DNA from: Euzebyales bacterium
GTDB lineage: Bacteria > Actinomycetota > Nitriliruptoria > Euzebyales > JAHELV01
DNA: 64,000 nucleotides
Direction of reading: 5' to 3'
Assembly: GCA_036374135.1 (NCBI GenBank)
Contig: DASUUK010000088.1
Location: 1-64,000, forward strand
Shown here: positions 37,490 to 44,291 of the stretch, piece after piece
Position numbering within the stretch: the stretch's first letter is position 1
How the letters are laid out: each line of letters begins with the position of its first letter
Made by a program: the position numbers and the translations under genes
The notes under the pieces: model-generated
What the model saw: the letters and a program-made list of their open reading frames with translations, nothing else
What the model was told of the DNA's origin: nothing
The model's database searches: none

Positions 37490-38383
37490 TCAACCGTCGT
37501 CGGCCAGACGCTTCTCGAAGAACAGGTCCGGATACGGGTTGTTGTTGTAGCGCGGGATCTGCCGATAACCCGCGCGTCCGTACATCGCGACCGCGGCGGT
37601 CAGTACGCTGTTGGTGTCCAGCCGCACGATCGCGCAGCCCAGGTCGGACGCGTGTGCCTCGAGCGCGCGGAGCAGGCGTCCGCCCAGCCCGGTGCCGCGC
37701 ACCTGAGGGCTGACCCACATGCGCTTGATCTCGGCCGCCCCGTCGTCGAGCACCTGCACACCACCGCATCCGACGGCGCGACCGTCGACCTGCGCGAGCA
37801 CGAAGCGGCCGGCCGGTGCGGTGAGCGCATGGAGCTCCGCGTCGACCTCCATGTCGGCGTCGAAGCCACCCGGGAAGCGCTCGTCCAGCTCGGCTGCGTA
37901 CCGTCGGACCGCGTCGCGTGCCGCATCGGTGCGCGGATCGACGACCTCGAGTCGTGCATGCGCCGCGGTCAGGAGCTGGTCCGCCTCGGTCAGCGCGGCG
38001 CTCAGGCGCTCGCGGTGGCGCGGTGCCAGACCGTCGAGCACCCGCGCCGCGAGCCGGTCCGACCGTTCGTCGAGGCGCCGCCACTCGGCCCGACCCGCCG
38101 CTGTCACCCGAACCCGGCGCTGCCGCGCGTCGGCGGGATCGGTGAAGACGTCGACCAGTCCATCGGTCTCCAGTGCCCGCAGGATCCGACTGAGATAGCC
38201 CGAGTCCAGATCGAGCCCGGTGCGCAGGTCGCGCACAGCCGCCGGACCGTCGGCCCGGCCGATCTCGAACAGGATCCGAGCGTGTCCCAGCGGCCGGTCG
38301 AACCCGAGGAAGCGGTCCTCGAGCACGCCGACGCGCGCCGTGAACGAGCGGTTGAAGCGGCGGAGCACCGCGACGTGGTCCAT
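37490..38383 (-). CDS. MarR-type regulator fused to a GNAT acetyltransferase
   Basis: A 297-residue fusion. Residues 1-140 are a winged-helix MarR domain (LGHARILFEIGRADGPAAV, DSGYLSRILRALETDGLVD is the recognition helix and wing). Residues 150-297 are a GNAT domain with the acetyl-CoA loop VSPQVRGTGLGGRLLRALE and IPRYNNNPYPDLFFEK at the end. Such proteins acetylate a small molecule or protein and could sense the same molecule through the MarR part. The start at 38383 is preferred over 38392 because the promoter geometry gives a leaderless mRNA from there. A perfect inverted repeat overlapping the -35 box suggests autoregulation. Confidence 0.87.
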   Translation of the reverse strand: MDHVAVLRRFNRSFTARVGVLEDRFLGFDRPLGHARILFEIGRADGPAAVRDLRTGLDLDSGYLSRILRALETDGLVDVFTDPADARQRRVRVTAAGRAEWRRLDERSDRLAARVLDGLAPRHRERLSAALTEADQLLTAAHARLEVVDPRTDAARDAVRRYAAELDERFPGGFDADMEVDAELHALTAPAGRFVLAQVDGRAVGCGGVQVLDDGAAEIKRMWVSPQVRGTGLGGRLLRALEAHASDLGCAIVRLDTNSVLTAAVAMYGRAGYRQIPRYNNNPYPDLFFEKRLADDG

Positions 38384-38390
38384 TGGCGCC

Positions 38391-38420
38391 ATCGTACACG
38401 ATTGTCTGACCGAGGTCAGA
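38391..38420 (-). promoter_or_regulatory. Promoter with overlapping 16 bp palindromic operator of the MarR-GNAT gene
   Basis: On the minus strand CTGACC (38419-38414) and TACGAT (38396-38391) are spaced by exactly 17 nt, and the -10 ends 7 nt before the ATG at 38383. A perfect inverted repeat, TCTGACC-2 nt-GGTCAGA (38405-38420), covers the -35 box. That is the expected layout of a MarR-family autorepressor site. Confidence 0.5.
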
Positions 38421-38500
38421 GATCTGGGCGTGCGCGTTGCGTCGGGTGGTCGCTCCCGGGTTTGCAGCGTTTGACGTGCACGGCGCCGGCAGGGTCGCTC

Positions 38501-38506
38501 TAGGGT
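38501..38506 (+). promoter_or_regulatory. Candidate -10 box (TAGGGT) for the DUF4395 gene, leaderless geometry
   Basis: TAGGGT ends 8 nt before the ATG at 38515. TTGACG lies upstream at 38471-38476 but at a spacing of 24 nt, too long for a normal pair. No ribosome site is present in the gap. Confidence 0.28.
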
Positions 38507-38514
38507 GGCGCCCC

Positions 38515-39015
38515 ATGCGTACGCTGTTCCGCTTCCCCGATCCCGTGAACGAGGCTTCGGCCCGCCTGGTAGCGGCCGGGGTGGTCCTGATGTGTGCGCT
38601 GGTGCTCGCCGGCCGGACATGGGTGCTCGCTGCGCTGGCGTACGGCTTCGTCGCGCGCGTGGCGACCGGTCCGACGCTCAGCCCGCTCGGTCAGCTCGTG
38701 ACTCGGTGGATCACCCCGAACCTGTCCGTTGCCGAACGGCTGGTCCCCGGCAGCCCCAAGCGCTTCGCCCAGGGCATCGGCGCGGCGCTGTCGGTCAGCG
38801 CGGCGGTGCTGCACTTCGGGTTCGCCGCCACAACACCCGCGCTCGTCCTGGTCGGGGCCATCGCCGCGGCCGCCACGCTCGAGGCGGCCTTCGGATTCTG
38901 CCTCGGTTGCTGGCTGTTCGCGCGACTGATCGCGCTCGGCGTCCTGCCCGAGCGGACGTGCGCCGCGTGCGACGACCTGCGGCTGCGGCACCCGTCGTCG
39001 GCGTGGACGAGCTGA
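38515..39015 (+). CDS. DUF4395 family membrane protein
   Basis: A 166-residue protein with about four helices. FRFPDPVNEASARLVAAGVV at the start and GFCLGCWLFARL with a CxxC inside the last helix are the DUF4395 hallmarks; CAACDDL near the C-terminus adds another CxxC. The family is often associated with thiol or rhodanese chemistry, and its role remains unproven. ATG at 38515 fits the conserved N-terminus. Confidence 0.85.
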   Translation: MRTLFRFPDPVNEASARLVAAGVVLMCALVLAGRTWVLAALAYGFVARVATGPTLSPLGQLVTRWITPNLSVAERLVPGSPKRFAQGIGAALSVSAAVLHFGFAATTPALVLVGAIAAAATLEAAFGFCLGCWLFARLIALGVLPERTCAACDDLRLRHPSSAWTS

Positions 39016-39290: not shown

Positions 39291-40070
39291 GTGGCAACGT
39301 TGATCGTCGAGCGCTCGCTGCGTCCCGTGTGGCGCCAGGGCCTCAACGTCGGGGCCTACGTCGCTGTCATCACGGTCAACGCGCTGGCCAACGCCCTTCC
39401 GATCAACGGCATCACCAGCGGCGCCGTCTCCGATCGCTTTCCGACCTTCGTCACCCCGGCCGGCTACGTCTTCGCGATCTGGGGACTGATCTACGCCCTG
39501 CTGGCCGTGTTCGTCGGCTACCAGGCGCTCCCGTCGCAGCGCGACGAGCCGGCGTTGCGCGACCTGGGACTTGCGTTCGTCGCGAGCTGCGCGTGCAACG
39601 CGGCATGGCTGTTCGCCTGGCACCACCTCCAGATCGCGCTGGCCTGGGCGCTGATCGTCGCGCTGCTGCTCACGCTGATCGTGTGCTACGAACGGCTGCG
39701 GGCCGCGGACGACACGCGGGCGCACCGCCTGGCCGTGCGGCTGCCCTTCAGCGTGTACCTCGGCTGGGTCACGGTCGCCACGGTCGCCAACACCGCGATC
39801 CTGCTCGTGGACGCGGGCGTCGACGGAGGTGCGGCCGCCCCGGCGTGGGGCACCGTGGCGCTGCTGGCGGCGACCGGCATCGGGCTGACGATGCTGGTGC
39901 GACGCCATGACGTCGCCTTCGCCCTCGTGGTCACGTGGGCACTGGTGGGCATCGCGGTCGCACAGGCGGACCGCAGCACGCTCATCGTCATCGTCGCCGG
40001 TGGCGCCGCCGCCGTGCTCGCCGTCGCCGCCGGCGTGACCGCTGCACGTCTCGTCCGCACCGGTGCATGA
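39291..40070 (+). CDS. TspO/MBR-like membrane protein
   Basis: A 259-residue protein with about seven to eight helices. PTFVTPAGYVFAIWGLIYALL and the ACNAAWLFAWH helix resemble the TspO/MBR fold (which has FxPPxxxFxxxW), but the protein is longer than the usual 160 residues. It may bind tetrapyrroles or sterol-like ligands by analogy, although this long subfamily is uncharacterised. GTG at 39291 has GGAG upstream and lies at the conserved start. Confidence 0.7.
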   Translation: MATLIVERSLRPVWRQGLNVGAYVAVITVNALANALPINGITSGAVSDRFPTFVTPAGYVFAIWGLIYALLAVFVGYQALPSQRDEPALRDLGLAFVASCACNAAWLFAWHHLQIALAWALIVALLLTLIVCYERLRAADDTRAHRLAVRLPFSVYLGWVTVATVANTAILLVDAGVDGGAAAPAWGTVALLAATGIGLTMLVRRHDVAFALVVTWALVGIAVAQADRSTLIVIVAGGAAAVLAVAAGVTAARLVRTGA

Positions 40071-40175: not shown

Positions 40176-41519
40176 ATGACCGTCGCCTGGGCACTGCTCG
40201 CACTTGCCGGCGTCATGCTGCTGGCCAACGCGCTGTTCGTCGCGGCGGAGTTCAGCCTGGTCACCGTCGACCGCTCCCGCGTCGCAGATGCCGCGAAGGG
40301 TGGCGACGAGACGGCCGCCGGCGTCCTGACGGCGCTGCGCAGCCTGTCGACGCAGCTGTCGAGCGCACAGCTGGGCATCACGGTGACGTCGCTGATCGTC
40401 GGCTATCTGGCGGAACCCTCGCTGGCGACGTTGCTGCGCGGCCCGTTGGCCGACCTGGGTCTCTCCGAGCGCGTCGCCGCCGGCATCGCGGTCACGATCG
40501 CACTCGTCGTGGCGACCGGCCTGCAGATGGTGCTGGGTGAGCTGGTGCCCAAGAACCTCGCGATCGCGCGTCCATGGGACGTGGCGATGCGCGTCACCCG
40601 GCCGCAACGGGCCTTCACACAGCTGGCGGGCTGGCTGATCCGCCTGTTGAACGGCAACGCCAACGCGATCGTGCGCATGTTCGGTCTCGAACCGCAGGAG
40701 GAGCTGGCGTCGGCGCGCGCGCCGCAGGAGCTGCAGTCGCTCGTGCGACGCTCGGCCGAGCTCGGCACCCTGCCGCGGTCCACCGCGGCGCTGCTGGCGC
40801 GCGGCCTCGAGTTCGGCGCGCGCTCGGCCGCCGACGTCATGACGCCGCGGGTGCGGGTCCACTTCGTGCAGGCCGAGACGTCCGTCGCCGGGGTGCTCGC
40901 CCAGGCCTGCCACAGCGGACTGTCACGCTTCCCGGTGACCGGCGAGGGCGGGTCCGACGACATCGTCGGCATCGTCGACGTGCGGCATGCACTCCGGGTG
41001 CCGCGTGCCGAGCGTTCGTCGACCCCCGCGCAGGATGTGGCGGGCGAGTCCGTGTTCGTGCCGGAGGCCATCGAGCTGGACACGTTGCTGCGTGAGCTGC
41101 GCGGCGCCGACAGCAACCTGGCGATCGTGGTCGACGAGTACGGGGGAACCGCGGGGATCGTGACCCTCGAGGACCTGGTCGAGGAGCTCGTCGGCGAGGT
41201 GGCGGACGAGCACGATCCGCCGGTCTCTCGGGTGCGGCTCAGCCGCGACGGCACCTACGTGGTCACCGGCCTGCTGCGACCCGACGAGATCCGCGACCTG
41301 GGCGTCGAGGTACCCGACGACGACGACTACGACACGATCGCCGGGTTCATGGCTGACGTCCTCGACCGCCTTCCGGGCGACGGTGACGAGGTCGAGGTCG
41401 GCGACTGGACCATGCGGGTCGTGCGCATGGACGGTCTGCGCGTCGACCGCGTCAAGTTGACGCCGGTCATCCGTGAGGTCGTCGACGACGGCACCGGGGC
41501 GGACGCACCACATGGGTGA
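40176..41519 (+). CDS. CNNM/CorC (HlyC/CorC family) transporter-like protein with CBS domains, copy 1
   Basis: A 447-residue protein of the CNNM/CorB family: DUF21 membrane domain (residues about 1-195, with LFVAAEFSLVTVDRSRV and the VLGELVPKNLAIARP motif), a CBS pair (about 215-335, with DVMTPRVRVHFV, GTAGIVTLEDLVEELVGEV) and a CorC_HlyC C-terminal domain. Members export magnesium or other divalent cations. It overlaps the second copy by 8 nt, and both lie upstream of an envelope protein. ATG at 40176 has a poor ribosome site. Confidence 0.9.
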   Translation: MTVAWALLALAGVMLLANALFVAAEFSLVTVDRSRVADAAKGGDETAAGVLTALRSLSTQLSSAQLGITVTSLIVGYLAEPSLATLLRGPLADLGLSERVAAGIAVTIALVVATGLQMVLGELVPKNLAIARPWDVAMRVTRPQRAFTQLAGWLIRLLNGNANAIVRMFGLEPQEELASARAPQELQSLVRRSAELGTLPRSTAALLARGLEFGARSAADVMTPRVRVHFVQAETSVAGVLAQACHSGLSRFPVTGEGGSDDIVGIVDVRHALRVPRAERSSTPAQDVAGESVFVPEAIELDTLLRELRGADSNLAIVVDEYGGTAGIVTLEDLVEELVGEVADEHDPPVSRVRLSRDGTYVVTGLLRPDEIRDLGVEVPDDDDYDTIAGFMADVLDRLPGDGDEVEVGDWTMRVVRMDGLRVDRVKLTPVIREVVDDGTGADAPHG

Positions 41520-42549
41520 CGCGACCGCACTGTGGCTCACGCTCGGCCTGCTGGCAGGCAACGCGTTCTTCGTCGGTGCCGAGTTCGCACTCATCTCGGC
41601 CCGCCGCAGCCAGATCGAGCCGCTGGCCACCCACGGGGGACGACGTGCGCGTACGACGCTGTGGGCGATGGAGCACGTCTCGCTGATGCTCGCGGGCGCG
41701 CAGCTGGGGATCACCGTGTGCTCGCTCGGGCTGGGTGCCGTCGGCGAGCCGGCGATCGCCCATCTGCTGGAGGGACCCTTCGAGGCCGTCGGCATGCCGC
41801 CGTCGTTGCTGCATCCCGTGGCGTTCGCGGTGGCGCTGAGCATCGTCGTGTACCTGCACATGGTGCTCGGTGAGATGGTCCCCAAGAACGTCGCGCTGTC
41901 GGTGCCAGAGCGCTCGGCGCTGTGGCTCGGCCCACCGTTGGCCACGATCGTGCGGTTGACCAAGCCGATCATCTGGCTGCTCAACGCCAGCGCCAACGGC
42001 GTGCTCCGCCTCATGCGGGTCGAACCCCGCGACGAGGTCTCTTCGGCGTTCACCGCCGACGAGGTCGCCGCGATGCTGGCCGAGTCCCGCCGCGAGGGCC
42101 TGCTGGACCACGAGGAGCACGAACTGCTCACGGGTGCGTTGCAGTACGAGCAGGTCAAGGCGGGTGACCTGCTGATCGGCACGGAGGACCTCATCTCGAT
42201 CGATCCCGACGTCACGGCTGAGGAGATCGAGGAGCTCGTCGCGCGCACGGGGTTCTCGCGTATCCCTATCCGCGACGATGATGCGGGGCCGCGCTCCTAT
42301 CTGCACGTCAAGGACGTGCTCGACCTCGAGCCCGACCAGCAGGTGCCGCGCGAGCGCTTCAGGGAACTGCCGCAGATCCCGGCGGGCGCGACCGTCGACG
42401 AGATCGTCGAACAGCTGCAACGTACGGGTAGTCACCTCGGTCTGGTGTCAGACGGTGCCACCGTGCTCGGCGTCGTCGCGCTCGAGGACGCGATCGAGGC
42501 ACTGATCGGTGAGGTCGTCGACGCCGCCCACACCGGCGCGGCAGAGTGA
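41512..42549 (+). CDS. CNNM/CorC family transporter-like protein with CBS domains, copy 2
   Basis: A 345-residue paralogue of the preceding gene. The DUF21 part has FFVGAEFALISARRSQI and VVYLHMVLGEMVPKNVALS; the CBS pair includes TGFSRIPIRDD and VLGVVALEDAIEALIGEVVD. The third, CorC_HlyC domain is missing, so it is about 100 residues shorter than the first. Tandem genes of this kind probably form a hetero-oligomeric transporter. The ATG at 41512 overlaps copy 1 by 8 nt; GTGA at 42546-42549 couples it to the next gene. Confidence 0.9.
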   Translation: MGDATALWLTLGLLAGNAFFVGAEFALISARRSQIEPLATHGGRRARTTLWAMEHVSLMLAGAQLGITVCSLGLGAVGEPAIAHLLEGPFEAVGMPPSLLHPVAFAVALSIVVYLHMVLGEMVPKNVALSVPERSALWLGPPLATIVRLTKPIIWLLNASANGVLRLMRVEPRDEVSSAFTADEVAAMLAESRREGLLDHEEHELLTGALQYEQVKAGDLLIGTEDLISIDPDVTAEEIEELVARTGFSRIPIRDDDAGPRSYLHVKDVLDLEPDQQVPRERFRELPQIPAGATVDEIVEQLQRTGSHLGLVSDGATVLGVVALEDAIEALIGEVVDAAHTGAAE

Positions 42550-44291
42550 CCGGCCCACCCCCACTCTCCAGATCGGGGTTCGACTCACTCGTGGCTGCAC
42601 GCAGATACTGGATCGTCATCGCCGTCATCGCCGCGGCAGTCCTTGGTGCCTTGGCGGTCAGCGTGCTGCGCGACCCCGCGCCGGAGACCCGCCGTGCGGC
42701 CGGAGCCTCCGAGGAACCGTTCGTGGCCCCGCAGCCGGCGGCGCTACGCCGATCGGTGACCCGTGTCGCGCACGACCCGACGGCGCCGGAACCGTTGTCC
42801 ATCGTCTCGCGGTCACACACCGCGGTGGTGTCCGCGGCGCACACGGACCGGCTCGTCGCTGCGCAGGTCGCGTTGGCGCTCGGAGCACCGCTGGTCGTCG
42901 TACCGGCACGTGGCCCCGGCGATGGCGCGTCCGCCTCTGAGCCCACCGCGGAGCCCGCCTCAGACGGCGCTGTCGCCGACCTCCAGCGCCTCGGCGTCGT
43001 CCGAGCGGTGACCGTCAGCCGCGACGACGACGTCGATGCGGTCCTGCAACGGGCGGCCCGCGACGGCGGTGCCCGCGATGTCGTCAGGCTGCGTCCGACC
43101 GGCGGGAGCCCCCCGACCGAGCGCACGGTGCTCCGCGACGCGGTGCGTGGCGATTCCGACGGGGATCCCGCGGTGGACCCCGCTGCGCTCCGCGATCTCG
43201 AGGCGACCGGCCCGCCGACCGCCGAACCGACAGGTACCGCGGTCATCACGCGTCCGCGCGGTGCGTCCGCGTTGCAGCTCGCCGTGGCCGCACGCGCTGT
43301 CGGCCACACGGTCATCACCACCGTGGCCTCTGACCTGCGTGGCGACCGGGTGGCCATCCGGCAGCTGGCCGAGATGACCGACGGTCCGGCCCCGGAGGTG
43401 ATCGTCGGTACGGGGACCCTTGCGCGGCAGTCACGCCAGAACCTCGCGCTGCAGGTCGCCGTCGCCTCCACCGGCATGCAGCTGCCGGGTGGCGGTCAGC
43501 TCGTGATCGACCCCCGGCGCCCCCACGCGCGCCGCTACATCACCCTGTACGGCGTGCCGCAGTCGCCGGCGCTCGGCGTTCTGGGTGAGCAGTCGGTCGA
43601 CGAATCGGTCGTCCGTGCACGGGAGATGCGCCGGCGCTACCGACGGGCCGTCGACGACGGCGTGGAGGTGGTCGGGGGCTTCGAGATCATCGCGACGGTC
43701 GCCTCGAGCTCCGCGGGACGCGACGGGAACTTCGCCAACGAGCTCAGGGTGGCCGAGCTGGAACCATCCGTGCGGGCGGCCCGCCGGGCGGGCTTGTACG
43801 TGCTGCTCGACATCCAGCCCGGCCGCAGTGACTTCCTCACGCTCGCCCGGCGCTACCGCAAGCTGCTCCGGCAACCTCACGTCGGTCTGGCACTCGATCC
43901 CGAGTGGCGCCTGGCCCCCGGCGAACGGCATCTGGAACAGATCGGCTCGGTCGGCATCGACGAGGTCAACGCGGTCGCTGACTGGCTCGCCGAGCTGACC
44001 CGCCGCAACCGCCTGCCACAGAAGATGCTCCTGCTGCACCAGTTCCGTTTGTCGATGATCCGTGAGCGCGCAGGGCTGGACACCAGCCATCCCGAGCTCG
44101 CCTACGTCGTCCAGATGGACGGTCAGGGCCCGCAGCACACCAAGCTGGAGACGTGGGCGGCGGTGACAGCCAACGCCCCGACACGCGTGCAGTTCGGCTG
44201 GAAGAACTTCTACGACGAGGACACGCCGCTGCGCAGCCCGGAGGCGACGATGGCATTGGAGCCGCCGCCGGTGTTCGTGTCGTACCAGTGA
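42546..44291 (+). CDS. Conserved undescribed membrane-anchored envelope protein (possible TIM-barrel domain)
   Basis: A 581-residue protein with one N-terminal helix (YWIVIAVIAAAVLGALAV, about residues 21-38), then an outside part. Residues about 85-290 resemble two cell-wall-binding (CWB2-like) units: AAHTDRLVAAQVALALGAPL and RPRGASALQLAVAARAVGH. The C-terminal half (about 325-581) has YITLYGVPQSPALGVLGEQ, LLDIQPGRSDFLTLARRY, LALDPEWRL, LLHQFRLSMI and FGWKNFYDED, ending PPPVFVSYQ. I recall this half as a widespread but unnamed actinobacterial domain; acid-rich loops suggest a TIM-barrel hydrolase. The function is unknown. GTG at 42546 overlaps the second CNNM stop. Confidence 0.78.
   Translation: MTGPPPLSRSGFDSLVAARRYWIVIAVIAAAVLGALAVSVLRDPAPETRRAAGASEEPFVAPQPAALRRSVTRVAHDPTAPEPLSIVSRSHTAVVSAAHTDRLVAAQVALALGAPLVVVPARGPGDGASASEPTAEPASDGAVADLQRLGVVRAVTVSRDDDVDAVLQRAARDGGARDVVRLRPTGGSPPTERTVLRDAVRGDSDGDPAVDPAALRDLEATGPPTAEPTGTAVITRPRGASALQLAVAARAVGHTVITTVASDLRGDRVAIRQLAEMTDGPAPEVIVGTGTLARQSRQNLALQVAVASTGMQLPGGGQLVIDPRRPHARRYITLYGVPQSPALGVLGEQSVDESVVRAREMRRRYRRAVDDGVEVVGGFEIIATVASSSAGRDGNFANELRVAELEPSVRAARRAGLYVLLDIQPGRSDFLTLARRYRKLLRQPHVGLALDPEWRLAPGERHLEQIGSVGIDEVNAVADWLAELTRRNRLPQKMLLLHQFRLSMIRERAGLDTSHPELAYVVQMDGQGPQHTKLETWAAVTANAPTRVQFGWKNFYDEDTPLRSPEATMALEPPPVFVSYQ

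Follow-up and report, generated by a model that had tools for sequence, protein, structure and literature searches.

An asymmetric CNNM/CorC gene pair beside a gene for an envelope protein with an unnamed barrel domain in a Euzebyales bacterium

Described relatives and layout of the locus

MtCorB-type transporters of the CNNM/CorB family combine a CNNM transmembrane domain (PF01595) with a CBS pair and a CorC_HlyC domain. MtCorB itself transports Mg2+ and was crystallised as a homodimer; its residues Thr207, Thr313 and Asp316 contact the ribose of ATP, and Glu111 coordinates Mg2+ (PMC8242095). PaeA, a relative, exports polyamines (PMC12421838). On the side of the cell wall, the CWB2 repeats of Clostridioides difficile bind PSII, an anionic wall polymer (PMC4973711), and Cwp19 of the same organism joins CWB2 to a TIM-barrel peptidoglycan hydrolase (PMC5765458).

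The window analysed here, a stretch of 64,000 nt on contig C88 of an incomplete 4.0-Mb metagenome-assembled genome of a Euzebyales bacterium, contains three same-strand genes, C1, C2 and P3, which span positions 40176–44291 and are all genuine reading frames. C1 and C2 code for CNNM proteins and P3 for an exported, membrane-anchored envelope protein. A scan of the locus for promoters and terminators came back empty. A TspO/MBR-family gene (39291–40070, forward strand) lies directly upstream of the CNNM pair, and positions 37490–38620 carry, on the reverse strand, a GNAT acetyltransferase fused to a MarR-type regulator. In an earlier note on this DNA, the three genes had been viewed as one cassette, with P3 as a possible partner, on the outside, of a metal transporter or as a possible wall hydrolase dependent on the metal. 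The explanation favoured here, with somewhat better than even confidence, is that two independent units adjoin: a standard asymmetric CNNM pair constituting a heteromeric exporter, and a separate envelope enzyme, P3.

The CNNM pair

C1 (40176..41519, forward strand) is a complete CNNM/CorC protein of 447 aa, in which Pfam recognized all domains of the MtCorB-type transporters: CNNM (2.3e-35), CorC_HlyC (4.5e-19) and the CBS pair (2e-10). C2 (41512..42549, forward strand, ATG start) is a short CNNM partner of 345 aa, for which Pfam returned CNNM (1.6e-46) and a CBS pair (2.5e-11) but no CorC_HlyC domain; its short relatives likewise do not have the length to accommodate one. Both the absence of CorC_HlyC from C2 and the 8-nt overlap of the two paralogous genes (41512..41519, ATGGGTGA) had been described correctly in the earlier note. 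The overlap is an ordinary feature throughout the phylum, amounting, by choice of starts, to 1–8 nt in all 19 actinobacterial pairs that could be tested. These 19 are the loci with upstream DNA present among 20 short-C2 loci inspected in Actinomycetota, and in every one of them (19/19) the short C2 gene directly follows a full-length gene of the C1 type.

Motif comparison revealed that C2, like C1, retained the GE-x-x-PK motif of the pi-helix/Mg2+ site common to CNNM/CorB transporters. In contrast, the threonine of MTPR and the DEYGG motif were missing in 21 of 21 C2 sequences, and the threonine of GIVTLED was substituted in most of them. Judged by motif spacing, the MTPR threonine and the threonine and aspartate of GIVTLED should correspond to Thr207, Thr313 and Asp316 of MtCorB. 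C2 would thus lack the consensus ATP-ribose contacts equivalent to Thr207 and Thr313.

In the phylogenetic tree, the window C1 joined the full-length first members of actinobacterial short-C2 pairs (a group of six, support 0.95), and C2 fell into a clade of 24 proteins, 23 of which are short C2 proteins (support 1.0). The nearest relatives of the window C2 (about 55–57%) are short C2 proteins from other actinobacterial families. The full-length/short arrangement is standard across Actinomycetota, with the window pair an ordinary member, and truncation of C2 as an oddity of this genome was rejected because it is phylum-wide. Rv1842c–Rv1841c of M. tuberculosis is presumably another such tandem. 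The window pair agrees with this type in gene order, lengths, overlap and loss of CorC_HlyC from the second gene, and no difference from it was found. Within the class, tandem CNNM pairs are nearly universal, usually with both members full length. The genus also has a second pair of this class type, both members being full length (L135, L136 and L137), from which the window C1–C2 pair is distinct; in the incomplete genome that the window comes from, the full-length pair was not seen.

Because C2 is consistently degenerate and is always found beside a complete C1, a C1–C2 heteromer is the best, and a likely, explanation of the sequence pattern. The hetero-oligomer proposed in the earlier note is thereby supported by the 19 pairs and the degeneration of C2, but as a general actinobacterial trait and not as anything particular to this locus. 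Such a pair would be asymmetric, in contrast to the solved CNNM/CorB structures, which are homodimers (PMC8242095). That precedent, together with the fact that the other tandem CNNM pair in the class has two full-length members, would be in line with C1 and C2 forming separate homodimers that have different jobs and are merely co-expressed. This is considered unlikely, since the same sensing features were lost in C2 wherever it was examined, and since no testable locus had a C2 without an adjacent full-length C1, as would be expected of an obligate partner. In the preferred heteromer, ATP would be sensed by the canonical CBS pair of C1, which would also bring in CorC_HlyC; C2 would complete the transmembrane part with a second half and add a CBS pair that is degenerate, so that one sensing subunit would be combined with a non-sensing one. 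The complex would most likely export Mg2+, another divalent cation or a polyamine, the last being exported by relatives such as PaeA. No paper on an actinobacterial CNNM heterodimer was found in the literature collection searched. From a phylum-wide asymmetric pair with a consistently degenerate second member, an Mg2+ exporter would be expected that is heteromeric and senses ATP with one of its halves.

Start and neighbourhood of P3

P3 (42546..44291, forward strand) was initially delimited by a GTG codon at 42546, which overlaps the C2 stop codon and gives a frame of 581 aa. In the three congeners (L026, L027 and L028), the first plausible P3 starts lie 56–72 nt past the C2 stop and are preceded by purine-rich, Shine-Dalgarno-like sequences (AAGGGG, AGGGAG and GAGGGGG), with further GTG codons at −13 and +20 in L026. 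The start in the window that matches those of the congeners is GTG 42591 (+42). Since the congener starts are located downstream in this way, the true P3 probably begins at GTG 42591 and comprises 566 aa, and the GTGA overlap with C2 is probably incidental. Translational coupling through GTGA, on which the cassette had partly been built, was consequently rejected as a cassette feature, since the three congeners do not share it, and the length of 581 residues given in the earlier note should probably be shortened. Residue numbers nevertheless refer to the 581-aa frame throughout.

Whether P3 belongs functionally to the CNNM pair was assessed from the company the two keep elsewhere. Searches with the P3 C-terminal domain were positive in 23 of 66 genomes of the class and in 47 of 296 genomes of the phylum, and at least 544 relatives were confirmed on GTDB contigs, 80 of which were kept. 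A single cassette of C1, C2 and P3, with P3 serving the CNNM transporter as a partner outside the cell or hydrolysing the wall under the control of the exported metal, is suggested by the same order and strand of the three genes in all four genomes of the genus, where P3 is single-copy. Beyond the genus, the triplet was absent: CNNM genes were found near P3 at none of 119 loci (for 95 of which 3 kb or more of flanking DNA was present on either side), a set that may include near relatives of one another, and a P3 match was lacking from all 19 CNNM-pair loci inspected across the phylum. Rarity of such neighbours in other genomes, which according to the earlier note would refute the cassette, is thus borne out for P3. 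Five genomes (G123, G157, G193, G261 and G328) possess both P3 and C2-type genes, in each case non-adjacent. With the coupling of C2 to P3 not being conserved either, the single cassette, and with it the role of P3 as a partner of the transporter, is very improbable. P3 is linked to Mg2+ export by genus-level adjacency only, and there is no evidence beyond it for a metal-transport/wall cassette. Two independent units thus remain the favoured explanation, although conservation in four of four genomes leaves room for a functional link specific to the genus, which counts against it. P3 would have landed downstream of C1–C2 in this genus only, where it is perhaps on the same transcript but uses its own ribosome-binding site. 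The window locus itself is ordinary; the unnamed envelope barrel described below is of interest, but separately from it.

Clustering of the genes neighbouring P3 yielded no partner common to most loci. The commonest clusters, one of them an rpiB-type gene located upstream in 21 loci, comprised 20–23 of 101 loci, and relatedness of the taxa accounts for them. A DUF4015 (GHL10) gene adjoins the barrel gene in two of 124 P3-type loci (L157:7123-8959 and L160:7160-9279), once in convergent and once in the same orientation. At L165:5719-7482 (reverse strand), the gene preceding the barrel gene resembles, judging from its sequence, an L,D-transpeptidase with a peptidoglycan-binding domain.

Domains of P3 and the nature of its barrel

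Near its N-terminus, P3 contains a hydrophobic run (YWIVIAVIAAAVLGALAVSV, residues ∼21–40, 42606..42665, forward strand), which conforms to the membrane anchor proposed in the earlier note. Outside the genus, 52 of 93 family members have a lipobox-like pattern; the window P3 has the transmembrane segment instead. The region that follows (42723..43496, forward strand) is predicted to consist of degenerate CWB2-type alpha/beta units. Pfam found no CWB2 (PF04122) in the window protein, the units being too degenerate, but three relatives from the class (L044, L045 and L046) combine the same C-terminal domain with three CWB2 repeats (E about 1e-44 to 1e-47). When compared with this triple-CWB2 region, the profile of the other N-terminal regions of the P3 family, including the window protein, gave an hhalign probability of 98.5%, and a profile confined to the genus gave 94%. 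The label "CWB2-like" used in the earlier note thus holds by homology via these relatives, but not as a Pfam match in the window protein. AF2 modelled the region as a confident alpha/beta structure (pLDDT 87), for which Foldseek returned no significant PDB match and no CWB2 structure among the top 50. Because a membrane segment or lipobox is combined with a CWB2-type N-terminal region, the C-terminal domain should be located outside the cell; the degenerate CWB2 modules may serve to hold or orient the membrane-anchored protein against a wall polymer. On one contig (C2) of genome G045, two barrel genes (L032 and L046) are situated about 18 kb apart, one with the canonical triple CWB2 and the other with degenerate N-terminal units.

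The C-terminal domain (43452..44288, forward strand) is, as the earlier note had noticed, strongly conserved and unnamed; neither Pfam and NCBIfam nor the sequences of the PDB yielded a match to P3. AF2, applied to an alignment of 21 barrel sequences, predicted a (beta-alpha)8 barrel with high confidence (pLDDT 93, pTM 0.92), in which eight strands follow in order, alternating with helices. Across an alignment of 112 sequences, which takes in members from Gemmatimonadota and Pantoea, residues Q424, D451, E453, H498, D525, K533, K553 and D559 round to fully invariant, D422 is conserved at 99%, and position 581 is Q or E. In the model, strands 3 to 8 carry nearly all of the invariant polar residues at their C-terminal ends or immediately beyond. 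In a TIM barrel this is the catalytic face, and such clustering on the predicted fold is typical of an enzyme, not of a passive binding module.

What kind of enzyme this might be was addressed by structure and profile comparison. All Foldseek matches of the barrel were weak (TM about 0.5 or less) and included dihydropteroate synthases, D-psicose epimerases, aldolase barrels and many glycosidases of the endo-H/GH18, GH84 and GH20 types; carbohydrate-active barrels (endo-H, ChiC, O-GlcNAcase and EngBF) were frequent among the best. A search with the barrel against a viral fold library retrieved generic TIM barrels only. With the GH18 chitinases and endo-H, which are among the better Foldseek matches, P3 has in common the TIM barrel and an acidic D-x-E at the end of beta4, but profile–profile similarity is lacking and the TM score is at most about 0.5. 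Assignment to GH18 was rejected (profile–profile probability 1.3%), as was assignment to DUF4015/GHL10 (0.8%), and no PDB sequence relative was found. Cwp19, whose CWB2 repeats are joined to a GHL10 TIM barrel, resembles P3 in connecting CWB2-type modules with an exported TIM barrel. It differs in that the barrel of P3 is C-terminal, is preceded by degenerate, N-terminal CWB2 units and a membrane anchor, and has no profile similarity to DUF4015/GHL10.

The main rival to a carbohydrate-active enzyme is a metal-dependent enzyme related to the xylose-isomerase-like superfamily, for which D422, D451, H498 and D525 would be the ligands, or another non-glycosidase barrel. AP_endonuc_2 matched 10 of the 21 barrel members weakly and below cut-off (best 7.6e-4, in L166), hhalign aligned the segment beta2–beta4 with this family, and psicose epimerases were, as mentioned, among the structural matches. 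The score, however, was 19.7 bits against a Pfam cut-off of 31.1, the profile–profile probability was a faint 17.8%, and the order of the ligand strands would presumably have to shift by two. This rival is regarded as the less likely of the two. Because of the envelope location and the fusion to CWB2, the barrel is most likely carbohydrate-active and would represent an unnamed TIM-barrel family, with a glycan of the wall or the cell surface as the probable target of hydrolysis or remodelling. The wall hydrolase considered in the earlier note is accordingly plausible for an exported, CWB2-type TIM-barrel protein with enzyme-like invariant residues.

Actinomycetota thus widely possess an exported TIM barrel, named in neither Pfam nor NCBIfam, whose active-site face of acidic, His and Lys residues is near-invariant. 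It is tentatively proposed that it founds a new family of envelope enzymes, glycan-active or else metal-dependent, which extends throughout Actinomycetota, reaches Gemmatimonadota, is tethered by lipid or membrane anchors together with CWB2-type modules, and acts on an actinobacterial wall polymer for which no enzyme is known. Such a substrate would supply a missing piece in the biology of the actinobacterial envelope.

No relatives of the P3 C-terminal domain were detected on viral contigs. Three plasmid records contain it, including a Gemmatirosa megaplasmid and a plasmid of Pantoea stewartii, pDSJ09. On the latter, a divergent barrel gene (L175:4848-5774) is situated between IS66 and IS630 elements, which suggests horizontal transfer.
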